Source of the DNA: Oerskovia flava | GTDB taxonomy: Bacteria > Actinomycetota > Actinomycetes > Actinomycetales > Cellulomonadaceae | Direction: 5' to 3' | Length of the DNA: 64,000 bases | Assembly (NCBI RefSeq): GCF_026163685.1 | Contig: NZ_JAOXSR010000003.1 | Location: 186,001 to 250,000, forward strand | Shown here: piece by piece, positions 31,618 through 59,226 of the stretch | Layout: each line of letters opens with the position of its first letter | Numbering within the stretch: position 1 is the stretch's first letter | Translations under genes and position numbers: made by a program | The notes under the pieces: model-generated | Databases searched by the model: none | What the model was told of the DNA's origin: nothing | The model's input: only the letters and a program-made list of their open reading frames with translations

Positions 31618-32571
31618 GTGAGCGAAGACCATCGGTCGACCGAGACGGGGACGAGCACGGAGGCCCCTGAGGGAGTCGGCGCGCCTCCGGGCGCCAGGTC
31701 TCCGGGCCGGGGTCCCGCACCCCGCACAGCGACCGCCACGACCCGTGCGGCGACCGCCACGACCCGTGCGGCGACCGCCACGACCCGTGCGGCGACCGCC
31801 AAGACCCCCCGGACCGCGCCCGCGCAGGGTTCACGCCGGCTCAAGCAGCGCGTGGCGGTCATCATCCCGGCGAAGGACGAGGCGCGGCGCATCGCCGCGA
31901 CCGTCCGTGCTGCGAAGGCGATCCCGCACGTCGATCTCGTGCTCGTGGTCGACGACGGGAGCGAGGACTCGACCCAGCACGTCGCGCGCGAGGCGGGCGC
32001 CGTCGTCGTGCGGCACTCGCACAACCGCGGCAAGGCCGCAGCGATGGAGACCGGGGCCGCGGTCGTCGCGATGCGCGACACGGCCGACCGGCCGCAGCGC
32101 CTCCTGCTGTTCGTCGACGGCGACCTGGGCGAGACGGCCGTGAACACGGCTCCGCTCGTGGCGCCCGTGCTCGACGGCGTCGCGGACGTCGCGATCGCAC
32201 TGCTCCCGCCGCAGCCCGGTGCGGGCGGGCGGGGGATCGTCGTGGGTGCAGCGCGCCGCGCGATCCAGTCGATGACGGGGTGGACCCCGACGCAGCCGCT
32301 GTCCGGGATGCGCTGCCTCACGCGCGAGGCGTTCGAGGCGGCGACGCCGCTCGCGCACGGCTGGGGGGTGGAGACCGGCATGACGATCGACCTGCTGCGC
32401 AAGGGCTACGTCGCGATCGAGGTCCCGTGCGACCTGCGGCACCGCGCCTCGGGCAGCGACCTCAAGAGCCAGCTGCACCGTGCGGCGCAGTACCGCGACG
32501 TGCAGCTGGCGGTCAACGCCCGGCGCGTGCGCGCGGTCGCCGGAGCGTTGAGCGGCCGCCGGGACCGGTAG
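31618..32571 (+). CDS. Family 2 glycosyltransferase
   Basis: 317-residue GT-A enzyme. The catalytic core starts at about residue 76: RVAVIIPAKDEARRIAATVR, the nucleotide-binding LVVDDGSEDSTQHVA, and the DXD-like metal site in LLLFVDGDLGE. Later motifs are PLSGMRCLTREAFEA and HGWGVETGMTIDLL. It lacks membrane helices and is close to the polyprenyl-glycosyl or glucosyl-3-phosphoglycerate type, but the donor and acceptor are not evident. The N-terminal ~70 residues are low complexity and include a 7-residue repeat (TTRAATA). The 3' end overlaps the convergent 1525-residue membrane protein gene by 59 bp. Confidence 0.85.
   Translation: MSEDHRSTETGTSTEAPEGVGAPPGARSPGRGPAPRTATATTRAATATTRAATATTRAATAKTPRTAPAQGSRRLKQRVAVIIPAKDEARRIAATVRAAKAIPHVDLVLVVDDGSEDSTQHVAREAGAVVVRHSHNRGKAAAMETGAAVVAMRDTADRPQRLLLFVDGDLGETAVNTAPLVAPVLDGVADVAIALLPPQPGAGGRGIVVGAARRAIQSMTGWTPTQPLSGMRCLTREAFEAATPLAHGWGVETGMTIDLLRKGYVAIEVPCDLRHRASGSDLKSQLHRAAQYRDVQLAVNARRVRAVAGALSGRRDR
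31729..31800 (+). repeat. 21-bp tandem repeat in the glycosyltransferase gene
   Basis: Three complete 21-bp units (starting 31729, 31750, 31771) and a partial fourth, each encoding a seven-residue Ala/Thr/Arg unit. Codon-identical copies imply recent expansion. Confidence 0.85.
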
Positions 32572-35500
32572 TCCCCGCCGGCCCGCCGAGCGGGTCGGGT
32601 GTGCTGCGCAGCGCGAGCATCCCCATGAGCGGCAGGGCCGCGACGAGCATCACGGTCGCGATCCGCACGCCGTAGTCGTTGACGATCGCGCCCCCGACGG
32701 CGGCGATGAGGAGCCCGACGAGCACCGGCCGGACGAGCGGCCACTGCTCCTCGACCCGCTCGAACCACCGCGGGCGCATCCTGGGGCCGCCCCACAGGAC
32801 GAGTGCCGTGGCGATCACCAGGGCGAGCGTGACCCAGGCGGGGATCCCGTTGGTCACGGTCGCGGCCGCGTACCCGCCCTTGCGGGCGATGGTCTCCCAC
32901 GCGGTCCCGTCGATCGCGGACTGGACGAACAGCCCGAGGTGCGTGCGCTCCGCCGCGGGCCGGAGCCAGTCGGCGATGCCGATGGCGGCGACGACGGCGA
33001 CCCCGCCGATCCCGATGAGCGCGAGGCGAGTCCAGGTGACGCGCACGTCCGCGACCGCGAGCACCACGATCGCCGCGGCGGGCACGAGCACGAGGCCGCC
33101 ACCGACGTCGGCCCCGAGGGTGGGCCACAGGTCGACGATCAACGCGACCGCGCCGATGCCGATGGCGGACCAGATCGCCGCGCGGCGTCGTCCCCGGTGC
33201 AGCAACCAGGTGGCGAGAGCCGCGGCCGTGATGAGCGCCGCGACGACGTACACGGAGTAGGTGGGGTTCCCGAAGCCGTAGTAGCGGCCGCCGAGCGTCG
33301 GGGCCGGGCCGAGCGGGCTGCCGCGGTGCAGGGGTGTGCCGAGCACGGCGTCGAGCGTGAGCACCGCGAACGTGATGCCGCTGATCAGGGCCGGCCCCAC
33401 CCAGGCCGGTCGCCAGGGCGCGAGCGCCCCGAGGCCGGCGACGATCGCGGTGCAGCCGACCAGCGACAACCACATCACTACGCCCGGGTCGTCGAAGCGC
33501 CACCACGACCAGGTCGTCATGAGGAAGAGCCCGGCGGGCAGCGACGCCAGGACGAGCATGGTCCCGTCGAGCGCGGATCGTGCACGGCGCGCGGCCGTCG
33601 GGGAGCGTCGGGCGAGCCGCGGGCCGAGGACGAGCGCTCCCGCGAGCAGCACGATCGCGACGTACAGCGGCACGGTCGTCACGCTGCCGGCGACCCCGCG
33701 CAGCGTGTGGTCCCGCACGGTGAGCTCGGCGAGCTGGTCGACGGCGGTGGCAGCGTCGGTCGGCCGCGGTCCGGCGGGCACGAGCGGCGCCCCGGTGAAC
33801 TCCGGCGGGTTCGGTGCGTCGACGGCGCCGAGGAGGGTCGTCGGCAGGTCGAGGAGGCGGACGGCCCCCTCCCAGCGCGTCGACGCGGCGGAGAGGAAGC
33901 GTGGCTGCGACTGCCCGTCGCCGTCCACGAGGCCGATGCCGAGGGACGGACGCCCCGGAGCGGGGTTGCCGGTGTCGACGACGATGACGGTCGCGTCGGC
34001 GGGGATCGACTGCAGGACACGGCGCACGGTGGTGTCGACCGCGCGGAGGGCGTCGTCGCGGCCGTCGACCCCGGTCGCTCCGGCGGCGAGCGCCGCGGGC
34101 ACGGACTCGGGGTCCGGGTGGTAGGGAGCGGCGCCCGCGTCGACGATCGTCACGGGGCACGCGAACGACTCCGCCGGGGTGCGCAGCGCGGTCTCGAGGT
34201 CGCGGTAGCGCTCCACGGTGCCGTCCGGGCCGGCGAGCGCGAGCGCCGCACCGGGCCCGACCGCCGTCGTGCAGGCGCTCGCGCCCCCGAGCGACGAGGC
34301 GAGGACCCCGAGCTCGGGGTTGAACTCGGACGCGGACTGACGGTCCACGAGGTCAGCCCAGCCCTCGACGGTCGCGTCGCCCTCGCTGCCGGGCGTGACC
34401 GTCCAGGGCGCGCACTCCCAGGTGCCGTCGACCCGTTCGCCCGTCACGGCGCCACGGCCCGACGACAGCGACAGCCAGCCGCCCGCCGGGCACTGCCCGT
34501 TCGCGCCGCTCGTCCCGACGGCGACGCCGGCCGCGCTCGCGCCGTCGCGCAGGAGACCCCACAGGGTCGGGGTGGTGGTGCGCGAGACGTCGGCCCAGCG
34601 GACCCCGCCGGTCCCGACGACGACCACGGGTGAGCCGTCGGCCGTGACCGACGTGCCGCGTCCCGAGGTGACGTCACCGGCCGCGACGAGCGGCGGGGGA
34701 GCCGGGACGGCGACGGCCGCGAGCAGGAGCGTCGCGAGCAGCCCGCCGCCGGTCGCGAGCAGGACGCCGGGCATCCGCCGCAGCGGAGCCTGCTGCTCGA
34801 TCTGCTTCTCCACCGGTCCCGTTGCCGGGCCGAACCACTGCGCACCGCACCAGGAGACGGCGAGCATCCCGAGGCCCACGAGGAGGACGACGCCCGCGAC
34901 GACGATGCCCGAGTCGTTGAGGACGGTCCCGACGGCGGCCGCGACGACCACGCTGGTCACCACGGGACGCAGCAGCGGCCAGGTCTCGTACGCGCGGCGC
35001 AGCGGGTCGGGACGGAAGCGCTCGGGCCCGACGAGGGCGAGGCACAGGGCGACGATCGCGACGGTCGCCAGCGCACCGAGCGGGTTGGCGACGGTTGCCC
35101 AGGCGCCGCTGGCCTTGGAGACGAGGACGCCGTACGCCTCGCCGTCGAGCACGCGGTCCACGAACTGCCCGAGGTGTGAGCTGGTCCCCGGGCGGGCCCA
35201 GTCGATGACGGCGACGACGCCGACGACCGCGAGCGTCGCGGCGGCGGCACCGAGCGCGCGCTTGGCCGTGACCGTGGCTCCCGCGACACCGAGCAGGAGC
35301 ACCACGAAGGCCGGGACCAGGGCGAGGATGCCGCCGAAGTCCGCGCCGAACGCGGGCCAGCCGTCGACGACGGTCGTCACGACCCCGACCCCCGCGGCGA
35401 GCCCCAGCGCCGCCCGGCGTCGCCCGCGGGCGAGCAGGAGGGCGGCGAGTGCCCCGGCGAGCACGAGCGCGCTGGCGGCGTACACGGAGAACGCGGTGTT

Positions 35501-37090
35501 GCCGAAGCCGTAGTAGCGGGCGCCGAGCGTGGGGGTCGCGCCGAGGATCGACCCTTGCTGCAGCACCGTGCCCGTGAGCCCGTCGACGGTCAGGACGAGC
35601 CAGGTCAGACCTGCGGTCGTGGCGCCCAGCCGCCAGGGGCTCGGCGGCAGCAGCCGGGACAGGCCCCAGGCGCCGAGCGCGAGGGCGAGGGTCGCGACGA
35701 TGGACCACAGGGTCGCGGCGAACATGGGCGCGGACCAGCCCCACCAGCGGGAGAGCGCGGCGAGGTAGGCGCCTGCGGGCGCACACGCGGCAAGGAGCAG
35801 GACGGCGGTGCTGACCCTGCGCGTCACGGGGCCCGGCCACGCGGGGCGGGCACCGGGGGACGCCAGCCGGTGGGCGCGGCGTCGGGCAAGGAGGAGCGCG
35901 CCGACCGCGGCGGCCCCGGCGAGGCCGACGACGACCACGAAGACCGGCATGAGGTGCGGGATCGTGTTGGTCATCTCGGTGAGGTAGCGGCGGTTCTCCA
36001 CCGTCCGCACCGGGCTCATCCGGCGTTCGGCGTCGACGACGAAGGGCGAGCCGTCGAGCTTGTCCACCGGGGCGCCCGCGGCCTGCGCCGCGGTCGCGGC
36101 GAGGTCCGCGAGGGTGATGATGCCCGGACGGCGCGTCGAGTCGGACACCAGCCAGCCGGCGGGCCCGCCGCCCTGGTGCCAGTCGACGACGACCTGCAGC
36201 CCGTGCTGCTCGACCGGGGTGTCCGAGACGCCCGCGACCACGACGCGCCATCCGGCCGGGACGGTGTCCACGAGCCAGTGCAGCACGTCGTCGAGCTCGT
36301 CGAGGGCGGCGCGGCGGTCCGTCGGCTCGTACGGGAGCTCACCGAGGTCGACCATCGTGACGGGGCAGCGGACGAGCTCGTCGTCGTCGAGCTGCGCGAG
36401 GTCGGGGACGTACCGCTCGACGTGACCGTCCGTGTCGGCGAGGGCCAGCGCGGCCCCGGGCCCGACGGCGGTCGTGCAGGTCCCGGCCTCGGCGATCCGC
36501 TCGCCGATGGTGCCCGGGACGCCGTACGCACCGGGGTGCTCGGCCGGGTCGGCGGTCAGGGACGACCAGTCGGCGACGTCGTGCGGGGAGGGGTCCTCGG
36601 CGCCGGCCTGCGAGGGCGCGACCTCCGGGACCGGCGGGCAGTCGACGGGCACGTAGGAGGGCTCGGTGTCCTCCGGGGCGTCGTCCGCGGTGGTGCCGTC
36701 GTCGGACTCCGGTGCGTCGCCGCTCGCGGACTCCTCCTGCGGGGCGAGGGTGCGTCGGCCGGCGGAGAGCGTGAGCCACGCGTCGAGGGGGCACGTCTCG
36801 GGGTTGACGGTGCGCACCGAGATCGAGGCCACCGAGCCTTCGGAGATCATCCGCCACAGGGTGGGTGTGCTCGTGCGGTCGACGTCCGTCCAGTGCAGGC
36901 CGCCGGTGCCGACGACGACGATCCCGTCCGCCGCAGGGGTCACGACCTCGTCCTCGGTCGACGCGTGGGCGGCCGCGGGGGCCACGAGCGCGGAGGTCAG
37001 CGCGAGCGAGGCGACGAGGAGGGCGCGCCACGGGGCGGCGGCACGAGCAGGAGCGGCCGCGCGGGGGCGGTCGGACGACACGAGGGGCAC
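32513..37090 (-). CDS. 1525-residue membrane protein built from two homologous halves
   Basis: Each half has an extracytoplasmic domain followed by a block of about nine membrane helices. Half 1 (residues ~1-770) begins with a signal peptide, then IVVVGTGGLHWTDVDRTSTP. Half 2 (~775-1525) begins with its own hydrophobic leader (MPGVLLATGGGLLATLLLAA), then VVVVGTGGVRWADVSRTTTP. Shared later motifs are CTTAVGPGAALALA, and, in the membrane block, LGATPTLGARYYGFGNTAFS versus LGPAPTLGGRYYGFGNPTYS. The TPTLWxxxxEG-like start and the following Thr/Ser-Gly motif recall the alkaline-phosphatase/sulfatase superfamily. That is inference, and metal ligands look degenerate. Likely acts on a cell-surface polymer. 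GTG 37090 lies 7 nt behind TACCCT. Adjacent GT2 and lipid kinase genes fit an envelope role. Confidence 0.8.
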   Translation of the reverse strand: MPLVSSDRPRAAAPARAAAPWRALLVASLALTSALVAPAAAHASTEDEVVTPAADGIVVVGTGGLHWTDVDRTSTPTLWRMISEGSVASISVRTVNPETCPLDAWLTLSAGRRTLAPQEESASGDAPESDDGTTADDAPEDTEPSYVPVDCPPVPEVAPSQAGAEDPSPHDVADWSSLTADPAEHPGAYGVPGTIGERIAEAGTCTTAVGPGAALALADTDGHVERYVPDLAQLDDDELVRCPVTMVDLGELPYEPTDRRAALDELDDVLHWLVDTVPAGWRVVVAGVSDTPVEQHGLQVVVDWHQGGGPAGWLVSDSTRRPGIITLADLAATAAQAAGAPVDKLDGSPFVVDAERRMSPVRTVENRRYLTEMTNTIPHLMPVFVVVVGLAGAAAVGALLLARRRAHRLASPGARPAWPGPVTRRVSTAVLLLAACAPAGAYLAALSRWWGWSAPMFAATLWSIVATLALALGAWGLSRLLPPSPWRLGATTAGLTWLVLTVDGLTGTVLQQGSILGATPTLGARYYGFGNTAFSVYAASALVLAGALAALLLARGRRRAALGLAAGVGVVTTVVDGWPAFGADFGGILALVPAFVVLLLGVAGATVTAKRALGAAAATLAVVGVVAVIDWARPGTSSHLGQFVDRVLDGEAYGVLVSKASGAWATVANPLGALATVAIVALCLALVGPERFRPDPLRRAYETWPLLRPVVTSVVVAAAVGTVLNDSGIVVAGVVLLVGLGMLAVSWCGAQWFGPATGPVEKQIEQQAPLRRMPGVLLATGGGLLATLLLAAVAVPAPPPLVAAGDVTSGRGTSVTADGSPVVVVGTGGVRWADVSRTTTPTLWGLLRDGASAAGVAVGTSGANGQCPAGGWLSLSSGRGAVTGERVDGTWECAPWTVTPGSEGDATVEGWADLVDRQSASEFNPELGVLASSLGGASACTTAVGPGAALALAGPDGTVERYRDLETALRTPAESFACPVTIVDAGAAPYHPDPESVPAALAAGATGVDGRDDALRAVDTTVRRVLQSIPADATVIVVDTGNPAPGRPSLGIGLVDGDGQSQPRFLSAASTRWEGAVRLLDLPTTLLGAVDAPNPPEFTGAPLVPAGPRPTDAATAVDQLAELTVRDHTLRGVAGSVTTVPLYVAIVLLAGALVLGPRLARRSPTAARRARSALDGTMLVLASLPAGLFLMTTWSWWRFDDPGVVMWLSLVGCTAIVAGLGALAPWRPAWVGPALISGITFAVLTLDAVLGTPLHRGSPLGPAPTLGGRYYGFGNPTYSVYVVAALITAAALATWLLHRGRRRAAIWSAIGIGAVALIVDLWPTLGADVGGGLVLVPAAAIVVLAVADVRVTWTRLALIGIGGVAVVAAIGIADWLRPAAERTHLGLFVQSAIDGTAWETIARKGGYAAATVTNGIPAWVTLALVIATALVLWGGPRMRPRWFERVEEQWPLVRPVLVGLLIAAVGGAIVNDYGVRIATVMLVAALPLMGMLALRSTPDPLGGPAGTTGPGGRSTLRRPRARAGR

Positions 37091-37175: not shown

Positions 37176-38324
37176 TCACTGCACCCGCACCACGAGCGCC
37201 CCGGGGTCGACGCGCGAGACGAGCTCGACGGCCTTGCCGAGCACGTCACCGTCCACCTGCGCCTGCTCGCCGCCCTCGACGCGGACGTGCACACGCTTGG
37301 CCCGCGCGTGGTCGATGCGGCCGATCTTCGCGGGCAGGTCGTTCCGCAGCCCGAAGCCCTGCATGACGACCTCGCCGAAGAGCTGGGCCCAGCCCACGAT
37401 CCCGCCGCGGGTGTCGATGGCCGCGATGTCGTGGACGCCGTCGTCGATCACGGCGTCAGGCAGGAGAGTGATGCCGCCGGGCAGCTTGCCGCAGTTGCCG
37501 ATGAGCAACGAGCGCAGCCGCGCGCTGACGACGGGCTTGTCGTCGAGGGTGATCTGCGCGCGCATGCGGCTGCCGTGCAGGTGTCGGATCCCGGCGACGA
37601 AGTACGCGACCCAGCCGACGCGCGCCTTGAGGTCGTCGTCGGCGTCGGCGACCATGGCCGCGTCGAAGCCGAGCCCGGCGATGACGAGGAAGATGTGCTC
37701 CTTGTCCGTATCGAACGGCGTCCCGGTGGCGTCGGCGGTGCCCTCGGGCGGCTCGCTGGTGACGGGGTCCTCGGCGTACTCGAGGATCTGGGTCCAGCCG
37801 ACGTCGATCGGCCGGTCCTTGCCGGCGATGACGATGCGCAGCGCGGCGACGGCGTCGGTGACGGGCAGGTCGAGGTTGCGGGCGAGGAGGTTGCCCGTGC
37901 CGACGGGCAGGAGGCCCATGGGCTTGCCCGTGCCGGTCAGCGCCTCGGCGACGGCACGGACGGTCCCGTCGCCGCCGACGGCGACCACCACGTCCGCACC
38001 CTTCGACAGGGCGTCCTTCGTCTGTCCGAGCCCGGGGTCCTCGACGGTGGTCTCGAGCCACAGCGGATCGGGCAGCGCGGCCTCGGCGAAGGCGCGCCGG
38101 ACGGTCTCCTCGAGGTCGCCGACCCCCGGCTTGGACGGGTTCGCGACGAAGGCGACGAGCTCGCGCGAGTCCTCCTGCGGAGTCGCCCGGCGCCCGGACG
38201 CTGCGCCCGCGCGCGCGTCCTGCCGCCTCATCCGGCCCTGCTCGATGAAGATGCCGAGCGCGACGACGAGCGCCGCGACGGCGATGACGATCGCGACGAT
38301 GCCGAGCCAGAATTCCCATGCCAT
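37176..38324 (-). CDS. Diacylglycerol kinase-family lipid kinase
   Basis: 382-residue protein of the DgkB/YegS lipid kinase family, which phosphorylates diacylglycerol or related lipids. An N-terminal membrane helix (FWLGIVAIVIAVAALVVALG) anchors it. The catalytic domain has FVANPSKPGVGDLEETVRRA, the nucleotide loop DVVVAVGGDGTVRAVAEAL (GGDGT near residue 115) and LLPVGTGNLLARNLDLP. The C-terminal half has FLVIAGLGFDAAMVADADDD and GGITLLPDAVIDDGVHDI. ATG 38324 sits 8 nt behind TACGGT, a leaderless arrangement, and diverges from serS with 141 bp between them. Confidence 0.88.
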   Translation of the reverse strand: MAWEFWLGIVAIVIAVAALVVALGIFIEQGRMRRQDARAGAASGRRATPQEDSRELVAFVANPSKPGVGDLEETVRRAFAEAALPDPLWLETTVEDPGLGQTKDALSKGADVVVAVGGDGTVRAVAEALTGTGKPMGLLPVGTGNLLARNLDLPVTDAVAALRIVIAGKDRPIDVGWTQILEYAEDPVTSEPPEGTADATGTPFDTDKEHIFLVIAGLGFDAAMVADADDDLKARVGWVAYFVAGIRHLHGSRMRAQITLDDKPVVSARLRSLLIGNCGKLPGGITLLPDAVIDDGVHDIAAIDTRGGIVGWAQLFGEVVMQGFGLRNDLPAKIGRIDHARAKRVHVRVEGGEQAQVDGDVLGKAVELVSRVDPGALVVRVQ

Positions 38325-49072: not shown

Positions 49073-52000
49073 ATGCTCCGCAGGTTGAGCGTTCGCGGGA
49101 AGATCCTTGCGGCTCTCGCCGTGCCCGTCCTCGTCCTCTTCGTCGCCGCCGCGATCATCTCCGCGCAGGCGATCAACGACGCCCGGGTCGCGAACCAGGT
49201 GAGCTCCCTCGTGGAGGCCCTGGCCGTGCAGGACACCGCGGGCAGGGCTCTCGCCGCGGAGCGTGGCGCGTCGATGCTGGCGGCGTCGAACGTCGACGGT
49301 GCCGACGACCTGGTCGTCGAGGCGCGTGCCGCCACCGACCAGGCGCTCGCCCAGCGTGACCGGCGCTTCCGGGACCTGGACACGTCCGCGCTCGACGCCC
49401 GCGTCGGTGAGGCGCTCGACCGGACGCTCGCGGACGTCGACGAGCTCGACGTGCTGCGCACCCAGATCGACAACCGGTCGAGCCTGGAACTCGCCAGCAC
49501 GCAGCGGTACTCCGAGTTCATCACGAACGCACTGCGTGTTCAGGAGCTCCTCGCGGAGACGTCCGGCAACCGTGAGGTCGCGCAGTACCTGACGACGTAC
49601 ACCTCCGTGAACCTCATGATGGACCAGCTCGCGCTCGAGCGCCCGTTCTACGGGCTGCTCATGGCCTCGGCGCAGCGCGGCCAGCTCACGCCGACCTCGT
49701 CGCTGCGTGGTGCGACGACGGTCGTGCGCGGCTACGAGCTGAACAACGACGCGCGGCTGGCGGTCGAGGCGCTGCGGCTCGAGGACGCACGTCTGCCCCT
49801 GCCGCCCGCCAGCTACACGACGGTCCGCACCAACATCGGCAGCCAGGCACCGCAGGCGGTGCCCGCCACCAACCGGGACGCGTGGGACGAGACCGCGACC
49901 GAGTACCTCAACGAGGTCACCCCGGTCCGCGACACGATCCGCCAGGCGTCGGTGGAGCGTGTCTCGGAGGTGGCCTCCGCCGAGGTCACCCGGACCGCCC
50001 TGACGATCATCTTCACCCTGCTGGCGGTCGTCGCGTCCGTCGTCATCGCGGGTCTGATCTCGCGCGGCATCGTGAACCCGCTGCGTCGTCTGACGAGCGC
50101 CGCGGCCGACGTCCGGCAGGAGCTCCCGAAGCTCGTCGAGCAGGTCGCCGTGCCGGGTCAGGGACCGGGCATCAGCCTGGCCCCGATCACCGTCGAGTCC
50201 AACGACGAGGTCGGCCAGCTCGCGGCCGCGTTCAACGACGTGAACACCACGACCATCCAGGTCGCCCGCGAGCAGGCCGCTCTGCGTGGCTCGATCGCCG
50301 AGATGTTCGTCAACGTCGCCCGCCGCGACCAGGTGCTCCTCAACCGCCAGCTCGCGTTCCTCGACGACCTCGAGCGGTCCGAGGAAGACCCGAACACCCT
50401 GTCGAACCTCTTCCGCCTCGACCACCTCGCGACCCGGATGCGACGCAACGCGGAGTCGCTGCTGGTCCTCGCGGGGATCGACTCGGGTCGTCGTGTCCGC
50501 CAGCCCATGCCGGCCTCGGACGTCATCCGTACGGCGTCCTCCGAGATCGAGCTGTACGACCGGGTCCGTCTGAACCTGGCCATCGACCCGCTGATGCTCG
50601 GGCACAACGCCCTGAACGCCGCGCACCTCATCGCCGAGCTCCTCGAGAACGCGACGATGTTCTCCGAGCCGCACACCCCGGTCGAGGTCTCCACGGCCCG
50701 CGACGACCGCTACGTGAAGGTGGTCGTGCGCGACCACGGCCTCGGGATGACCGCCGAGGAGATCGTGGACGCCAACCGGAAGGTCGCGACGCACGCAGCC
50801 TCCGAGATCGTCGGTGCGCAGCGCCTCGGGCTCTACGTGGTCGGTCGACTGGCCGAGCGTCTCGGGGCGAACGTGGTCTTCACCGCCGGCTCCGACGGCA
50901 CCGGAACCGAGGTCACGGTCAACTTCCCCGCCGCGCTGTTCGTCCCCGACTCCAACGTGCCGCTCCCACAGCCGACCGACCCGCTGGAGACCGCGACGCA
51001 GTCGGCCGTCCAGCAGCGTGGCGCCGCGCCCGCGCCCGCCCCCGCTCCGGTGGCAGGTCCGCCGACGGCCACGACGCCCGTGGTGGAGCCCGAGGCGCCC
51101 GTCGCCGTGCCGGTCGACCTCGACGCGCTCACGGACGGTACGACGCAGACAGGCATGCCGCGCCGTCGCTCGCGCGGTGTGGACCCGGCAGGCTCGGCCC
51201 CGAGCGCGTCGTTCGCCCAGGGTCCGCAGACCGGGGCGATCGTCCTCCCGCCTCTCGCGACGCCGTCGCTCCCCGCCGACCTTCCGGTGGCCGACGACGC
51301 GTGGACCCCGCCCGAGGACGTCACCCCCGCCGACCCCGCGCTCCCGAACCGCGCGCTCCCGAGCCGTCGACGCCCGGCCGAGGCCGACAGCGCCGCGGCG
51401 CCGACTCTGCCGCCGGCCCCGGAGTCGAGCGAGATCCCGGTGCTGGACGTCAGCACGCGCAGCGCCTTGTTCTCGAGCTTCCGGTCGCTCGCCGACCTGG
51501 ACGCCCCGGCGGCGAACCCGGTCGAGCTTGAGGCGGCACCCGAGGTGGGCGCCTCCGACATCGTCGTCCCGGACTTCGTCCCGGACTCCGACTCGTGGGC
51601 GCCGACGTTCTCGATCGGCAGCGGCGGTCCGCTCGGACAGGGCGCCGACCCGGCGACCGCGCACGGCGAGGGTTCGGGTGACGCTTCCGTGGAGCCGGAT
51701 CAGTACCCCGCCACGCAGCCGCTGGACGATGACACGCGGACCATGGAGCCCGTCGCGCCGTCGCCGGAGGGCTCGCAGCAGGAGTCGTACGAGCCGCAGG
51801 CGTACGCGCCCGAGGCGTACGTCCCCACGGAGAACGCTCACGCCGCACCGCAGGCCGAGCAGGCCGGGTGGCAGCCCGCGGAGCAGGTCGGCTGGCAGCC
51901 GGAGCAGGCGCCGGGAGGCTACGACGACCTCGTGAGCGGTGTTCCGGACACGGCGGCCTACGATGCCGACGCGTCCCCTCGCGAGCAGGCGGCGCCGACC

Positions 52001-53137
52001 GCGACGCCGGCACAGGGTGTCCCGCACGCCCAGCAGTCGTCCGTGCCCGAGGTGGCTCACGAGACGGCCGCTCCTCAGGAGCCCGCTCGTGAGGAGATCC
52101 CCGAGGAACTGACGTTCGAGGCGCTCCCGAAGTTCGAGGAGCTGATGGCGGACCTGCCGACCCGTAGGTCCCTGCGGGAGAGCGCGACCCGCAAGCGCGG
52201 GCTGTTCGGGCGTCGCGCCCGCCCGGTCGCGACCCGGACCGAGCCCGGCGCTCCTCCGGCCACGGTGACTCCTCGCCCGCCGGCCGGGCAGCCCTACGCA
52301 CCGCAGGCACCCGTGCAGCAGCCATCCGCCCCGCAAGCACCTGCCGCAGCGGCGCCCGCTGCGCAGGCACCCACGGCCGGCCCGGCACGGGCGAGTGCGT
52401 TCTCGACCGCGCCGAGGACCTTCGCGCCGCCGACCGAGGCGTACTCGCCGCAGTTCGCGCCGCCGGACACTCCCGCCGACGTGCCTGCCGCGCCCGTCGA
52501 GCGCAGTGCACAGACCCCTGCGCCCGCCTCGAACGGGCAGCCGTGGGAGCCGCGACGACCGGGCTCCGTCGGGCAGCAGCAGCCGAACCCTTACGACGCC
52601 TTCCTGGGTTCCGGGGGCTCGGGGAACGCAGACGCTGCGACCCGGGCTCCGGCTGCTGCACCTGCCGAGCCAGGCGCCCCGGCTCCGGACCTCGCCGGTG
52701 GCTCGGCTCCGCTGGCCCGTCGCCAGCCGCGCGACGGGCTGCAGCCGCTCGACCCTACCTACGTCTCCGACTCGGTCGAGGCGCGCTCGGACTGGATGGC
52801 GTCCGCCGTCCTGTACGAGGAGATGTCCACCCTGCTGAGCAGCACCGACGACCTCCAGGACTCGACGTTGGGCGACCAGAACCACTCGTACCGGCCCGAG
52901 ACGATTGCCACGGCCGGCGGCGGCCTGGCGCGGAGAGCTCGCAGCGGGCCGAGCGACGACTACGTCGACCGCTTCACGGCGCGCATCGATCGCGACCCGG
53001 AGCAGCTGCGGGCACGTCTCGCGGCGTACCAGTCCGCGACCGCCCGCGGTCGTGTCGAGGCCGGCGACGAGACGGGCTCGACGTGGGACACCCAGACCGT
53101 GGATCATGTCCCTGACTCAGCGCCGCAGTCGCGGTGA
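49073..53137 (+). CDS. cvnA: Conservon sensor kinase-like protein (CvnA type), with very long C-terminal tail
   Basis: 1354-residue membrane protein, first gene of a conservon. Helix 1 is LAALAVPVLVLFVAAAII. An extracytoplasmic nitrate-sensor-like helical domain (about residues 35-300) has VQDTAGRALAAERGASMLAA. Helix 2 (TIIFTLLAVVASVVIAGLIS, about 305-325) leads into a HAMP region and a coiled coil. The HATPase domain (about 500-625) shows AELLENATMFSEPHTPVEV, VRDHGLGMTAEEI and RLGLYVVGRLAERLGANV. A classical phospho-His box is not evident, as in CvnA proteins. The last ~700 residues are Pro/Ala/Glu/Gln-rich, apparently disordered, ending in conserved-looking WMASAVLYEEMSTLL and YVDRFTARIDRDPEQLRARL segments. 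ATG 49073 has GGAGAGAGG upstream. Confidence 0.88.
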   Translation: MLRRLSVRGKILAALAVPVLVLFVAAAIISAQAINDARVANQVSSLVEALAVQDTAGRALAAERGASMLAASNVDGADDLVVEARAATDQALAQRDRRFRDLDTSALDARVGEALDRTLADVDELDVLRTQIDNRSSLELASTQRYSEFITNALRVQELLAETSGNREVAQYLTTYTSVNLMMDQLALERPFYGLLMASAQRGQLTPTSSLRGATTVVRGYELNNDARLAVEALRLEDARLPLPPASYTTVRTNIGSQAPQAVPATNRDAWDETATEYLNEVTPVRDTIRQASVERVSEVASAEVTRTALTIIFTLLAVVASVVIAGLISRGIVNPLRRLTSAAADVRQELPKLVEQVAVPGQGPGISLAPITVESNDEVGQLAAAFNDVNTTTIQVAREQAALRGSIAEMFVNVARRDQVLLNRQLAFLDDLERSEEDPNTLSNLFRLDHLATRMRRNAESLLVLAGIDSGRRVRQPMPASDVIRTASSEIELYDRVRLNLAIDPLMLGHNALNAAHLIAELLENATMFSEPHTPVEVSTARDDRYVKVVVRDHGLGMTAEEIVDANRKVATHAASEIVGAQRLGLYVVGRLAERLGANVVFTAGSDGTGTEVTVNFPAALFVPDSNVPLPQPTDPLETATQSAVQQRGAAPAPAPAPVAGPPTATTPVVEPEAPVAVPVDLDALTDGTTQTGMPRRRSRGVDPAGSAPSASFAQGPQTGAIVLPPLATPSLPADLPVADDAWTPPEDVTPADPALPNRALPSRRRPAEADSAAAPTLPPAPESSEIPVLDVSTRSALFSSFRSLADLDAPAANPVELEAAPEVGASDIVVPDFVPDSDSWAPTFSIGSGGPLGQGADPATAHGEGSGDASVEPDQYPATQPLDDDTRTMEPVAPSPEGSQQESYEPQAYAPEAYVPTENAHAAPQAEQAGWQPAEQVGWQPEQAPGGYDDLVSGVPDTAAYDADASPREQAAPTATPAQGVPHAQQSSVPEVAHETAAPQEPAREEIPEELTFEALPKFEELMADLPTRRSLRESATRKRGLFGRRARPVATRTEPGAPPATVTPRPPAGQPYAPQAPVQQPSAPQAPAAAAPAAQAPTAGPARASAFSTAPRTFAPPTEAYSPQFAPPDTPADVPAAPVERSAQTPAPASNGQPWEPRRPGSVGQQQPNPYDAFLGSGGSGNADAATRAPAAAPAEPGAPAPDLAGGSAPLARRQPRDGLQPLDPTYVSDSVEARSDWMASAVLYEEMSTLLSSTDDLQDSTLGDQNHSYRPETIATAGGGLARRARSGPSDDYVDRFTARIDRDPEQLRARLAAYQSATARGRVEAGDETGSTWDTQTVDHVPDSAPQSR

Positions 53138-54935: not shown

Positions 54936-55011
54936 GGTCTCGTCGCACACACCGTCCGCCGCGTGCCAGAATGTGCGACGGAGCCGGCTGCGTCACGTCG
55001 CGGTCCGGCCG

Positions 55012-55096
55012 GGAGGGCTGACAGAGCGGCCTAATGTGACGGTCTTGAAAACCGTTGTGCGGCAACGCACCGGGGGTTCGAATCCCTCGCCCTCCG
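55012..55096 (+). tRNA. tRNA-Ser (anticodon TGA)
   Basis: Acceptor GGAGGGC (55012-55018) pairs with GCCCTCC (55089-55095), with discriminator G. The anticodon loop CTTGAAA gives TGA. The long variable arm of class II tRNAs is present before the GGTTCGAATCC T-loop. CCA is not encoded. A hairpin terminator lies at 55156-55180. Confidence 0.96.
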
Positions 55097-55155
55097 CCGT
55101 GAGATGAGGTCGAGGCATCGCCACGCGATGCCCGGTGTCATCGGTGATACTGACG

Positions 55156-55180
55156 AGAGCTCGGCCATCGGCCGGGCTCT
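55156..55180 (+). terminator. Hairpin terminator after tRNA-Ser(TGA)
   Basis: AGAGCTCGGCC (55156-55166) pairs with GGCCGGGCTCT (55170-55180) with one wobble and an ATC loop, followed by TTGTTC. Confidence 0.75.
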
Positions 55181-55307
55181 TGTTCGTGGTGCGGGGCTCG
55201 CTCACCGTCGTCGAGGTCCCCGGAGACGGGCCCGCGGGACTGAGCACCTGACGACGTCGGGCCCTCGGTCCGTGGTGGAACGGGCGGGGGACCGGGATCA
55301 TGGACCC

Positions 55308-56597
55308 GTGAGCACCCAGGGAAGCGAGAGGGGGCGCGGCCCTGACGAGTCCGCGCTGGAGCCGGTCGAGCTCATCCGACAGTCGGGCACGGTGCTGCGG
55401 ATCGGGAGGTTGGCGCTCTCGGCGGGTACGGGCTCCTACCGCGTGAAGTCCCACATGGCGCGGACTGGCAGGGCGTTGGGCCTCGATCGGATCGCCGCGC
55501 ACGTGACCCTCACGGAGATCACCGCGACGTCCTACCGGGGGCCGATCTTCCGTACCGAGGTCGCGGAGGTGCGCAATGTCGGGATCAACGCCGACCGGCT
55601 CGCCCGCCTCGAGCTGCTCGCGTCGAGCCTGCCGGCACGCGCGTCCTCTCGGGACGTGGACGCGGCGCTGGACGACATCGCTGCGCGCCCCCCGCTCTAC
55701 GGGGTCCTGCTGAACGCCTTGTGGGCCGCACTGGCCTGCGCGGCGTTCGCGTTCCTCAACAACGGTGGCGTCGTGGAGTGCGGTGCCGTGCTCGTCGCGG
55801 CGGGACTCGGCCAGATGGTGCGCCGGACCATGATGCACCGGGGCATCAACCAGTTCGGGGTGACGATGCTCGCCGCGGCCGTCGCGAGCATCGTGTACCT
55901 GCTGGTGGTGCTCGGCCTGGGCGAGCTCGCCGGCGTCGAGGGCGGTCACGAGGCGGGCTACGTCTCCGCGGTCCTGTTCCTCGTCCCGGGCTTCGCCCTG
56001 GTGACAGGAGCCCTGGACCTCGCGAAGCTCGACTTCTCGGCGGGCATCGCACGCCTGACCTACGCGCTGATGATCCTCGCGTCGGCGGCGCTGGCGGTGT
56101 GGGCGGTCTCCGCGGTCGCGGGGTTGCAACCGGACCCGCCGCCACCGCCCGTCCTCGACGAGACGCTCCTGCTGGCGCTGCGTGCGGTCGCGAGCCTCGT
56201 CGGGGTGCTGGGCTTCGCGCTCATGTTCAACAGCCCCTGGCGGATGGCGCTCGGTGCGGCGGGCGTCGGGATGCTGGCGAACGTCGGGCGCCTCGCCCTG
56301 CTCGACGTCGGTCTGGTCCCGCAGGCCGCCGCGGCGGCGGCCGCGCTCGCCGTGGGTCTGCTCACCGCGCTGGTCGCGCCCGCGCTGCGGGTGCCTCGTA
56401 TCACGGTGTCGGTGCCCGCCGTCGTCATCATGGTGCCGGGCGTCACCGCCTACCGGGCGGTGTACGAGTTCAACAGCGGCGAGACGGCACAGGCCCTGGG
56501 GTACGCGGTGGACGCCGGCCTGGTCATCGTCGCGCTGTCGATCGGCCTCGCCGTGGCCCGGATGCTCACCGACCGGACATGGACCTTTGAGCGCTGA
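55308..56597 (+). CDS. ThrE-family threonine/serine exporter
   Basis: 429-residue carrier combining both ThrE modules: an N-terminal DUF1212 cytosolic/membrane part (LIRQSGTVLRIGRLALSAGT, GTGSYRVKSHMARTGRALGL, HVTLTEITATSYRG) and a C-terminal DUF3815 membrane part with VPAVVIMVPGVTAYRAVYEF. About ten hydrophobic segments run from residue ~140 to the end. Corynebacterium ThrE exports threonine and serine, so the same role is inferred. The start is uncertain. GTG 55308 was chosen because the frame upstream overlaps the tRNA terminator region and is arginine-rich. It lies between two tRNA-Ser genes, probably by coincidence. Confidence 0.85.
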   Translation: MSTQGSERGRGPDESALEPVELIRQSGTVLRIGRLALSAGTGSYRVKSHMARTGRALGLDRIAAHVTLTEITATSYRGPIFRTEVAEVRNVGINADRLARLELLASSLPARASSRDVDAALDDIAARPPLYGVLLNALWAALACAAFAFLNNGGVVECGAVLVAAGLGQMVRRTMMHRGINQFGVTMLAAAVASIVYLLVVLGLGELAGVEGGHEAGYVSAVLFLVPGFALVTGALDLAKLDFSAGIARLTYALMILASAALAVWAVSAVAGLQPDPPPPPVLDETLLLALRAVASLVGVLGFALMFNSPWRMALGAAGVGMLANVGRLALLDVGLVPQAAAAAAALAVGLLTALVAPALRVPRITVSVPAVVIMVPGVTAYRAVYEFNSGETAQALGYAVDAGLVIVALSIGLAVARMLTDRTWTFER

Positions 56598-56683
56598 CGT
56601 CCGAGCGCTTTTGCTCCGCGCGCCGATGGACGGGTACCCTGTCGAAGCGCCGTAGGTTGGGACTCGTTCGAGCCGCTGCGCGA

Positions 56684-56772
56684 GGAGACGTCGCATAGTC
56701 AGGTCTAGTGCGCCACCCTGCTAAGGTGGTAACGGGGCAACCCGTTCGAGGGTTCAAATCCCTCCGTCTCCG
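56684..56772 (+). tRNA. tRNA-Ser (anticodon GCT)
   Basis: Acceptor GGAGACG (56684-56690) pairs with CGTCTCC (56765-56771), with discriminator G at 56772. The anticodon stem CCACC/GGTGG encloses CTGCTAA, giving GCT. A long variable arm is present and CCA is not encoded. Confidence 0.96.
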
Positions 56773-56780
56773 CTCAGGAA

Positions 56781-56811
56781 GGTCCCGGCCGCGCAGAGCC
56801 CGGGGCCTTTT
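56781..56811 (+). terminator. Rho-independent terminator after tRNA-Ser(GCT)
   Basis: GGTCCCGG (56781-56788) pairs with CCGGGGCC (56800-56807), followed directly by TTTTCTGTT. Confidence 0.8.
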
Positions 56812-56834
56812 CTGTTGCCCGACAACCTCTCCGT

Positions 56835-58202
56835 TCAGGCCGGTTGCTCGACCACCGAGCGCACCACGAACCGTGAAGACGCCGCGCCGGCGAGCACCAG
56901 GCCCGTCGCGGCGGCGACGCTCAGGAGGAACTGGACGACGACGCCGACGTTCTGGAACGTGCTGAACCCGAGCACCGGGACCATGAACATCAGCACGGCG
57001 GCGGTCGAGACCCCGACGCTCGTGGCGAGCGGGATGACGGTCTCGCGCATGCGTGCCGCGTGGAGCGTAGCGGCGTCCGTGCCGGCGAGGACGAGGGTGC
57101 GGTACTCGCCCCGCTGGTCGATCACCCGACCGGCCTGCATCACACCCGTCGAGACGGCTGCGAGCACGCCGGCGATCGCGAGCGTGAGGAACCCGCCGGT
57201 CTTCACGTCGGTGAGGAGCTCGATCTCGGCGGGGTCGCCGCCCGTTCCCGGGTCGAACAGCGCGAAGATGCTCGTGAGACCGGCGATGAAGGTCGCGAGC
57301 GCGACACCGCCGACGGACCGCCACGCGGTCTTGGGGCTGTCGACGATGCGCCGGCCGGCGAGCAGCGTGGGGACGCGACGAGCCCGGCGCGCGGCGATCT
57401 TGCCGATCAGCCAGATGACGAACGGTCCGACGACGTTGAGGGTCGCGAACCCGATGACGAGGATCATCACGAGCACGGTGATCGCGACCGCGCTGGAGCC
57501 GAACGACACGTTCGTGGCGACGATCATCGCCACGAAGGCGACGCCGATCGTCAGGAGCCTCAGCGCCTTCATCCCCGGGGGTGTGACGCGTGCGGCGACC
57601 CCGAGCGGGGTGATGGCCACCCGGCGCAGGGAGGCCATGGCGGAGACCAGCGCGACGAGCACGACACCCAGCGCCGCGAGGAGCAGGGTGGGGACGCCGA
57701 CCCACAGCTCCCCGAGGTCGAAGGTGCGCCCCTGGAAGCGCAGCCGGGCGACGAGCGGCAGGAGCGCGCCGTACCCCGCGATGCCGGCGAGCGCGCCCGT
57801 GAGCGCCTGAGCGCTGGCGTCGAGCACCGTGAGGGTCGCGACCTGGCGGGTCGTGGCGCCGGCCAGGCGCAGGGACGCGAGCCGGGCGTCGCGGCGTGCC
57901 ACGGCGAGCCGTGCGGCCGCGCCCCCGAGGGTGATGAGCGGGACGAGGAGTAGCAGCGCGGCGATGGCGGCGAACATCGGGTACTGGGTGGCGTTGTCCG
58001 TGTAGGTGCCGCTGAGGCCCTCGGTCATCCCGTCGACGCCGCCGGCGCGCGCGAGGAACGCCCCGAAGCCGCCGATCACCACCAGCAGGACGGCGGTGGT
58101 GACGGCGAACGCGACGACGGCCAGGACGCTGGTCAGCTTCTGCGGGTCGCGGGCGTCCGCGCTCCGGCGGCGCAGCAGCCACCACAGGTCGAGGGTTCTC
58201 AT
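56835..58202 (-). CDS. FtsX-like ABC transporter permease
   Basis: 455-residue membrane subunit with about nine hydrophobic segments and two FtsX-type regions. The N-terminal SVLAVVAFAVTTAVLLVVIG is followed by RRDARLASLRLAGATTRQVA, the characteristic cytosolic coupling segment (RxxxxALRLxGAT). The second half has QRGEYRTLVLAGTDAATLHA, the equivalent copy. Proteins of this kind with a MacB/LolD-like ATPase often export or sense antimicrobial peptides or act on the cell wall. Its ATG shares ATGA with the stop of the ATPase gene. Confidence 0.88.
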   Translation of the reverse strand: MRTLDLWWLLRRRSADARDPQKLTSVLAVVAFAVTTAVLLVVIGGFGAFLARAGGVDGMTEGLSGTYTDNATQYPMFAAIAALLLLVPLITLGGAAARLAVARRDARLASLRLAGATTRQVATLTVLDASAQALTGALAGIAGYGALLPLVARLRFQGRTFDLGELWVGVPTLLLAALGVVLVALVSAMASLRRVAITPLGVAARVTPPGMKALRLLTIGVAFVAMIVATNVSFGSSAVAITVLVMILVIGFATLNVVGPFVIWLIGKIAARRARRVPTLLAGRRIVDSPKTAWRSVGGVALATFIAGLTSIFALFDPGTGGDPAEIELLTDVKTGGFLTLAIAGVLAAVSTGVMQAGRVIDQRGEYRTLVLAGTDAATLHAARMRETVIPLATSVGVSTAAVLMFMVPVLGFSTFQNVGVVVQFLLSVAAATGLVLAGAASSRFVVRSVVEQPA

Positions 58203-58945
58203 CGGGCGACCTCCCGGTTGCTGGTGCCGGGTGCGTGGTACTCGCCCGCGACGAGGCCGTCGCGCATCGTGACGGTGCGCGAGCAGTGCCGGGCGACGCC
58301 GGCGTCGTGCGTGACGATCACGAGCGCGGCACCGGACGACCTCGCCGCGGTGGTGAGCACCGAGAGGACCTCGTTGCCGGTGGCCTGGTCGAGCGCCCCG
58401 GTGGGCTCGTCGGCGAACACGACGCCGGGAGAGCCGACCAGCGCCCGCGCGATCGCTACGCGCTGCGCCTGGCCGCCCGAGAGCTCGCCGGGTCGGCGGT
58501 CTTCCATCCCCGCGAGGCCGAGGTGCGCGAGCCAGCCGGCGGCGGCCCGGGTCGCCTCCTGGCGGGACGTGCCGCCCAGCATGAGCGGCAGCGCTGCGTT
58601 CTCGACGGCCGGCAGCTCGGGCAGGAGCTGGCCCGACTGGAACACGAAGCCGAAGTCCTGGCGGCGCAACGCCGTGCGACGGGTCTCGCCGAGGGTCGTG
58701 ATGTCGGTACCGCGCCACGCGACCGTGCCGGACGTGGGCGTGACGATGCCGGCGAGGCAGTGCAGGAGCGTCGTCTTGCCGGACCCGGACGGGCCCATGA
58801 TCGCGACCGACTCGCCGGGCGCCACCGTGAGGCTCACCCCGGCGAGCGCGTGGGTCGCGGTCGGACCCGTGCCGTAGACCTTCGTCAGGCCGGACGCGAC
58901 GAGCGCGGAGTGCTGCGGGGGTGGGGGAGCGGTGGTGGGCGTCAT
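58199..58945 (-). CDS. ABC transporter ATP-binding protein (MacB/LolD type)
   Basis: 248-residue ATPase for the FtsX-like permease encoded downstream. Walker A is IMGPSGSGKTTLLHCLAGI (about residues 49-67). The Q-loop is GFVFQSGQLLPELPAVEN, typical of LolD/MacB proteins. The signature is LSGGQAQRVAIARALVGSPG, Walker B VVFADEPTGALDQATGNE, and the switch His VIVTHDAGVARH. It is first in the two-gene operon and overlaps the permease gene by 4 bp. ATG 58945 lies after a Pro-rich leader-free region. Confidence 0.93.
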   Translation of the reverse strand: MTPTTAPPPPQHSALVASGLTKVYGTGPTATHALAGVSLTVAPGESVAIMGPSGSGKTTLLHCLAGIVTPTSGTVAWRGTDITTLGETRRTALRRQDFGFVFQSGQLLPELPAVENAALPLMLGGTSRQEATRAAAGWLAHLGLAGMEDRRPGELSGGQAQRVAIARALVGSPGVVFADEPTGALDQATGNEVLSVLTTAARSSGAALVIVTHDAGVARHCSRTVTMRDGLVAGEYHAPGTSNREVAR

Positions 58946-59148
58946 GTGTCCAGCCTGTCCCGGGAAGGCGGGGTGGCGCGTCGGGCCGTGGTCTGGACCT
59001 GCCCGACGTCGGCTCCGCCCCTGGGTGGAGCGCCGTGTGCACCCAGCGGCGTAGGTGGTGGGCGTCACGCCTATCGGTTTGGGTTGGCGGCGCGGACACG
59101 GTAGTCTTCTCGACGGCCGGTGAGTGATCGGCGGCCATCGCAGGACCA

Positions 59149-59221
59149 GCGCCCGTAGCTCAACGGATAGAGCATCTGACTACGGATCAGAAGGTTGGGG
59201 GTTCGAATCCCTCCGGGCGCA
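59149..59221 (+). tRNA. tRNA-Arg (anticodon ACG)
   Basis: Acceptor GCGCCCG (59149-59155) pairs with CGGGCGC (59214-59220), with discriminator A. D-arm TAGCTCAACGGATAGAGCA. The anticodon stem TCTGA/TCAGA encloses CTACGGA, giving ACG. T-loop GTTCGAATC. CCA is not encoded. Confidence 0.96.
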
Positions 59222-59226
59222 CAGCA

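Follow-up and report, generated by a model that had tools for sequence, protein, structure and literature searches.

We analyzed a 64,000-nucleotide stretch of the Oerskovia flava genome (contig NZ_JAOXSR010000003.1, positions 186,001 to 250,000; hereafter the window) and confirmed that one of its genes, coding for a protein of 1525 residues, contains two copies of a single unit consisting of a leader, an extracytoplasmic domain and a membrane block. The protein belongs to a widespread actinobacterial family that has no curated name. The reading that we favor, by a modest degree of belief, is that the unit is an unnamed actinobacterial outward-facing transferase of lipid-linked sugars, of the SEDS/O-antigen-ligase (GT-C_B) type, with a dead phosphatase-fold domain, and that it is doubled and fused in this protein.

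The open reading frame (ORF) lies at window positions 32513-37090 on the minus strand, to which the coordinates of all protein parts given below also refer, and runs open for 1525 codons from a GTG start. Aligned by BLASTP, residues 1-790 and 791-1525 were identical in 256 of 716 columns (36%; 264 bits, E 2e-81), and the halves scored 959 in local alignment, compared with 110 at most when the second half was shuffled 200 times. The initial annotation had described the same order of motifs in both halves (VVxVGTGGxxWxDVxRTxTP, then CTTAVGPGAALALA, then LGxxPTLGxRYYGFGN), and this order was indeed found twice, in halves that are homologous throughout. A DNA pattern for RYYGFGN had two matches genome-wide, both within this ORF. 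Each unit spans ~750 residues: a hydrophobic leader comes first, then ~300 residues of soluble domain, then the membrane block with RYYGFGN. In unit 1, the leader was assigned by hydropathy to residues 22-44 (36959..37027), while the soluble phosphatase-fold domain (residues 56-370; 35981..36925) and the membrane block (residues 371-755; 34826..35980) were assigned by alignment with half 2, and RYYGFGN lies at residues 525-531 (35498..35518). The signal-like leader noted earlier in the second half is also there, in frame, as a hydrophobic, leader-like helix joining the units (residues 773-799; 34694..34774), for which the model confidence is low. It is followed by the soluble domain of unit 2 (residues 818-1108; 33767..34639) and by its membrane block (residues 1113-1495; 32606..33754), with RYYGFGN at residues 1269-1275 (33266..33286).

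The structure of half 2 was predicted from 99 rows, made up of the two window halves and 97 of the 114 domain rows, giving a mean predicted local distance difference test score (pLDDT) of 90.4, with residues 1-31 below 50, and a predicted template modelling score (pTM) of 0.90. Among the 50 best rows of VIA-align, this model matched phosphoglycerate mutases, nucleotide pyrophosphatases (NPPs) and sulfatases with Z up to 18.2, over 221-249 residues at a root-mean-square deviation (rmsd) of 3.2-4.3. Foldseek likewise placed sulfatases and nucleotide pyrophosphatases best (E 2.9e-4 and up). The predicted soluble domain thus has an alkaline-phosphatase-superfamily fold, as the initial annotation had suggested from the sequence. 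Its catalytic centre is another matter. Position 828, which was mapped by eye to the first metal-binding Asp of active relatives, is Asp in 1 of 99 rows, and across the soluble columns of the reference His reaches at most 18 of 99 rows. The likely nucleophile position was located through one weak profile alignment (E 0.0012) against 22 Phosphodiest proteins; it holds Thr in 55 of 99 rows. The same loss of catalytic residues was seen by eye in relatives from other classes, L203 being an exception at the first Asp position. Since neither the metal nor the nucleophile positions are kept, this domain is probably non-catalytic, a dead phosphatase-fold domain and not an active phosphatase. Across the 99 rows Cys867 and Cys893 never vary; they may be joined by a disulfide.

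The membrane block was modeled separately (residues 1100-1500) from an alignment that did not include eight loci or the first halves from Promicromonospora. The predicted model has 11 helices, with pLDDT 93.0 and pTM 0.92. Eight of the 997 chains aligned by VIA-align reached Z 8, and these eight were RodA (6bas 11.0, 6bar 10.8, 6pl6 9.8, 6pl5 9.6, 8tj3 9.1), WaaL (7tpg 10.8, with 244 residues aligned at rmsd 5.5) and FtsW (8p1u 9.8, 8bh1 9.1); designed helical barrels (6.8) and receptors (~5) came next. GT-C_A folds were absent from the 50 best VIA-align entries, which excludes nothing. In Foldseek, WaaL ranked sixth (E 0.22, template modelling score (TM) 0.37) and had the highest probability among the matches listed (0.84). 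These model comparisons suggest a GT-C_B-like fold of the SEDS/O-antigen-ligase type for the membrane block.

The conserved residues of the block have a comparable anatomy. With the soluble domain placed outside by the leader, the motifs SWWRFDD, RYYGFGN, GADxGG, the DWLRP...HLG...RK loop and NDSG all fall on the outer side and the Arg-rich loops inside; for SWWRFDD, one helix listing has the inner side and the count from the leader gives the outer. Conserved polar residues thus lie in outer loops, one of which, towards the C-terminus, is long. A CAZy analysis places the conserved residues of GT-C_B-type enzymes all on the outer face, with a long outer loop near the C-terminus in clans GT-C1 and GT-C2, and names Arg191, Arg265 and His313 in O-antigen ligase and an Arg and an Asp in SEDS proteins (PMC10920833). 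Mutations in FtsW point to the same outward cavity (PMC8765783). RYYGFGN had been called an invariant motif in a membrane loop and a possible active or substrate site. It is nearly invariant (R and G in 99 of 99 rows, Y in 97, N in 93) and lies in a predicted outer loop, and an active site in the membrane block is likely according to the model. His1384 is conserved in 93 of 99 rows, and its relative position, interpolated between aligned ends (0.70), is close to those of WaaL His313 (0.71) and RodA Asp255 (0.68); the invariant Arg1269, at 0.39, is offset from the WaaL Arg positions. A likeness of RYYGFGN to the R-G-N stretch of Wzy proteins was considered and dropped, as 1 of 23 proteins fit the tested expression.

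Neither Pfam (best E 0.24) nor NCBIfam (best E 0.17) assigned the 1525-residue protein to a family. No Pfam row for PF01098 (SEDS) was obtained with the window protein, and PF04932 (Wzy_C) matched neither this protein nor the scanned relatives. Profile A1 has 23 members, 21 relatives and the two window halves. Their best Pfam rows, in a table without cut-offs, were PelG (E 0.00078, one member), Phosphodiest (0.0029, three members) and SGSH_C (0.0056, five members), and none of the 23 matched NCBIfam at E 0.01. Ten loci chosen from the 29 phylum-search loci outside the window's genome were scanned as well. Three had Pfam rows, all below the cut-off (SGSH_C in two; DUF6056, E 0.0015, in L201), and none had NCBIfam rows. 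Identity with DUF5693 (PF18949) was ruled out by the lack of any match in the window's genome at E 1. A literature search, whose coverage left out most subscription journals, found no paper on the protein.

With half 2 as query, family members were detected in 78 of the 197 class genomes; with half 1, in 51 of 59 closer relatives when fused and single forms are taken together; and with profile A1, in 83 of 246 genomes of the phylum Actinomycetota. In a scan of named genomes, at least 594 stretches matched, of which 539 encode a relative, and the best 80 were kept as the named loci. The fused form, with both motifs in one ORF, was present at 38 of these 80 loci, in Cellulomonas, Oerskovia, Isoptericola, Actinotalea, Cellulosimicrobium, Xylanimonas, Sediminihabitans, Promicromonospora, Puerhibacterium and their kin. 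The other 42 have one motif only, most of them as single genes (Nocardiopsis, Actinomadura, Herbidospora, Jiangella and others), and three of them begin at a contig end (L079, L097, L104). Myceligenerans (L100) has a C-type unit only, within 13.5 kb of sequence. In genomes of other classes, two adjacent separate copies occur (G364:C83, G344:C125, G452:C108, G461:C443, G432:C7), and there the pairs arose or persisted without fusion. Both single-copy homologues and adjacent split pairs, which the initial annotation had proposed to look for, were found in actinobacteria. The reading frame shifts inside the fused gene of Paraoerskovia (L081, 4637-6834) and of Cellulosimicrobium (L104), by sequencing error or in reality. 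A search of a plasmid collection for the family returned one record, L143 (NZ_LT559118.1), an 11.85-Mb Nonomuraea record titled plasmid I, which carries no annotation in that collection and, judged by its size, looks like the chromosome.

The two halves have not been conserved alike. Second halves keep ten of the eleven examined membrane residues in 30 of 30 rows and the eleventh, Arg1377, in 28, whereas of the 32 first-half rows 8 keep Arg1377 and 22 keep Asp1374. Six first halves from Promicromonospora (L090, L091, L092, L095, L096, L098) have also lost Asn1275, Asp1328, His1384, Lys1404 and Asn1471-Asp1472, together with the last helices, and yet they are still constrained, with a ratio of nonsynonymous to synonymous substitution rates (dN/dS) of 0.20-0.29 in three pairs. 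Among rows labelled single, 31 of 37 keep all eleven residues, as do both halves of the window protein. Since the residue set is kept in the C half and has drifted in the N half of many genera, the alignment suggests that many fused members probably combine one catalytic half and one altered or regulatory half.

Both halves are under purifying selection, with dN/dS of 0.11-0.30 in each for 10 close pairs; the window protein and L063, which are further apart (dS ~0.7), gave 0.42 and 0.40. Because of the values for the close pairs, and because both motifs share one ORF at 38 of 80 loci, the 1525-residue ORF is not a gene-calling accident. In a 116-row tree, made by a quick search without bootstrap, all 38 first halves formed one group (100 in the Shimodaira-Hasegawa-like approximate likelihood ratio test, SH-aLRT) and all 40 second halves fell in one group (99), joined there by the rows from Myceligenerans and Paraoerskovia that are labelled single. 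As each half has its own group, one event, older than the radiation of the fused-form genera, suffices. In a tree of 36 rows hand-chosen from the 116, both halves and a Kribbella copy stood on one side of a branch (100/100), and the N and C halves without the Kribbella copy were rejected as one clade by the approximately unbiased (AU) test (p-AU 0.004), a result that rests on a single distant Kribbella row. The repeat described as a tandem duplication is real; it may have arisen by in-place duplication or by fusion of two older paralogues. In the larger tree, both halves of L082, from a record titled Sphaerisporangium cinnabarinum, group with Cellulosimicrobium, suggesting a mislabelled genome.

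Tail to tail with the 1525-residue gene lies a gene for a family 2 glycosyltransferase (GT2; 31618..32571, plus strand; Glycos_transf_2 E 1e-12), whose start is provisional and whose conserved part begins near 31828; the two genes overlap by 59 bases (32513-32571). A GT2 gene was found near the family gene at 64 of the 80 named loci, within 2 kb at 61 and further off at three. At those 61 loci, it is downstream on the opposite strand (convergent) in 47 cases and upstream on the same strand in 14, the latter arrangement occurring in Cellulomonas, Actinotalea and Promicromonospora. Across the 197 genomes, both genes were present in 58, GT2 alone (E 1e-20) in 2, the family gene alone in 20 and neither in 117 (Fisher p 6e-30, a value that ignores relatedness). 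In these genomes, 44 of 60 GT2 matches lay within 5 kb of the family gene, 39 of them convergent downstream. Since the two genes are paired in two arrangements, a functional link beyond plain synteny is indicated. The nearest solved relatives of the GT2 are GpgS/MpgS (E 3e-8), and its NCBIfam rows, all below the cut-off, include PpgS, by its listed name a lipid-phosphate sugar synthase, and AglJ, another such synthase. Upstream of the 1525-residue gene is a diacylglycerol kinase (DGK)-like gene (37176..38324, with a provisional start; minus strand; DAGK_cat E 3.7e-18). At the 80 named loci, the family gene was also accompanied by genes for seryl-tRNA synthetase (SerRS, 54 loci), DGK (44) and PheA (27).

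If the unit is such a transferase, the GT2 would make or extend a lipid-linked donor in the cytoplasm, and the outward-facing cavity of the membrane block would take in the polyprenyl-linked sugar or oligosaccharide. In half 2 numbering, Asp1247, Arg1269 and Asn1275 (RYYGFGN), Asp1328 (GADxGG), Asp1374/Arg1377/His1384/Lys1404 (the long loop) and Asn1471-Asp1472 would bind the donor phosphate and activate the acceptor, whereas the phosphatase-fold domain, its catalytic centre lost, may bind or position the acceptor or may regulate. The fused protein of Cellulomonadaceae and Promicromonosporaceae would then contain one fully catalytic unit and one altered or regulatory unit. For this putative transferase we infer glycosyl-transfer activity, the substrate and the role of the GT2. 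More tentatively, and with doubt prevailing, we propose a new SEDS/O-antigen-ligase-type family across the actinobacterial phylum, in which the dead phosphatase-fold domain replaces the usual partner (a penicillin-binding protein or a co-polymerase) as the acceptor-handling module, in which one lineage has fused a catalytic and a regulatory half, and which would serve an envelope glycan with a GT2-made lipid-linked donor.

Several results weigh against a GT-C_B-type transferase. VIA-align Z values below ~13 may reflect a common arrangement or chance for helical proteins, and Foldseek gave nothing at E <=0.001 for the membrane block, with transporters ranking first at TM ~0.2. When the membrane profile was compared by hhalign with a Wzy_C set of 23 proteins (25 of 30 loci taken, two dropped at contig ends), the E value was 0.005, or 0.003 with distant relatives added, while one-side-reversed nulls gave 0.003-0.018; with a SEDS set of 28 domains (of 30; two dropped), E values of 0.04 and 0.06 were not significant (nulls 0.13-0.30). 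With both sides reversed, a change that leaves the real comparison intact, the values were 0.0007 and 0.0002 for Wzy_C and 0.035 twice for SEDS, and SEDS against Wzy_C by the same procedure gave 1.5e-7. Because the profile comparisons are not significant, the GT-C_B assignment rests on predicted structure and anatomy. In that anatomy, Asp1247 (0.33) and Asp1328 (0.55) stand at the places of the two WaaL Arg (0.34, 0.56) by interpolation and are Asp, not Arg; the place of the residues agrees with WaaL and RodA, but the residue type differs at these two positions. Finally, 16 of the 80 named loci have no GT2 match, seven of them with <=4.4 kb of downstream sequence, and 20 of the 78 genomes with the family gene lack one.

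The same evidence bears on other explanations. The protein could be a sensor or regulator and not an enzyme, its dead phosphatase-fold domain binding an envelope lipid or glycan while the membrane block signals or holds partners, by analogy with YejM/PbgA. The absence of the usual active-site residues from the phosphatase fold would fit, and Foldseek lists periplasmic domains of YejM among its matches (6vat, 6xlp), but the most conserved polar residues lie in the outer loops of the membrane block, where a pure sensor has no need of them, and the best matches of that block are glycosyltransferases; we regard this explanation as rather unlikely. Quite unlikely, in our estimation, is a transporter or flippase whose membrane block moves a lipid-linked glycan or other substrate behind the soluble domain as an outer gate. 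It draws on the first Foldseek rows, which are transporters such as SLC19A3 (E 0.05) and URAT1, and on the weak Pfam match to the exporter PelG in 1 of 23 members. These Foldseek rows have TM ~0.2 at rmsd ~20, however, and none of the 50 best VIA-align entries puts a transporter near the RodA/WaaL group. Of the polymer-processing or exporting machine imagined in the initial annotation, polymer processing is plausible, given that the closest solved folds are RodA, FtsW and WaaL, whereas export is backed by weak Foldseek rows (E >=0.05).

We give least credence, and very little, to an active phospho- or sulfo-transferase or hydrolase of the alkaline phosphatase superfamily that is anchored by the membrane block and works with unusual catalytic residues. 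The fold similarity to phosphoglycerate mutase, NPPs and sulfatases (Z up to 18.2), the weak Pfam matches to Phosphodiest (3 of 23 members) and SGSH_C (5 of 23) and a Thr that 55 of 99 rows carry close to the nucleophile site would suit it. Set against these are the near absence of the first metal Asp (1 of 99 rows), the scarcity of His in soluble columns (at most 18 of 99) and, L203 at the first Asp position excepted, the same loss by eye in relatives from other classes.

Should the transferase reading be true, a family without a curated model would be added to the few transferases of lipid-linked sugars that face outward and construct bacterial envelopes, and it would point to an unrecognised surface glycan in many actinobacteria. 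The protein would also supply a naturally fused dimer with which to ask if enzymes of this type act in pairs, and it would clearly exemplify the reuse of a phosphatase fold as a glycosyltransferase module without catalysis of its own. Even without that reading, the envelope protein is conserved, lacks annotation and occurs in 78 of the 197 class genomes sampled. Elsewhere in the window, a 1354-residue ORF (49073-53137, plus strand) has NIT sensing, HAMP and histidine-kinase-type ATPase domains, and tRNA genes for Ser-tga, Ser-gct and Arg-acg lie within 4.2 kb (55012-59222, plus strand). Two ORFs on the strand opposite the tRNAs (54993-56696 and 56566-58185) overlap two of these three genes and have no Pfam match.

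Among known systems, RodA/FtsW (PF01098; GT119) provide the best fold match to the membrane block (Z 9.1-11.0), and in them, as in the modeled block, the conserved residues are placed outside and a long outer loop lies near the C-terminal end. They differ in that profile similarity is not significant, that His stands here where SEDS proteins have Asp (by interpolation), and that the chain studied here is doubled and fused to a phosphatase-fold domain. WaaL/Wzy_C (PF04932; GT121) resemble the block through 7tpg (Z 10.8 over 244 residues), the Foldseek probability of 0.84 and a conserved His at a matching relative position, but there is no Wzy_C match here, the profile comparison is not significant, and the two Arg positions of WaaL are without Arg. 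The alkaline phosphatase superfamily (sulfatases, NPP, phosphoglycerate mutase) has the fold predicted for the soluble domain; in the family described here the sites for metal and nucleophile are not kept, and the domain is joined to an 11-helix membrane block. YejM/PbgA, which has a role in the control of lipopolysaccharide (LPS), is likewise an envelope protein with a phosphatase-fold domain outside the membrane (6vat, 6xlp). The small membrane part of YejM is located before its soluble domain, whereas in the family described here a large predicted block of 11 helices comes after it and matches RodA and WaaL.

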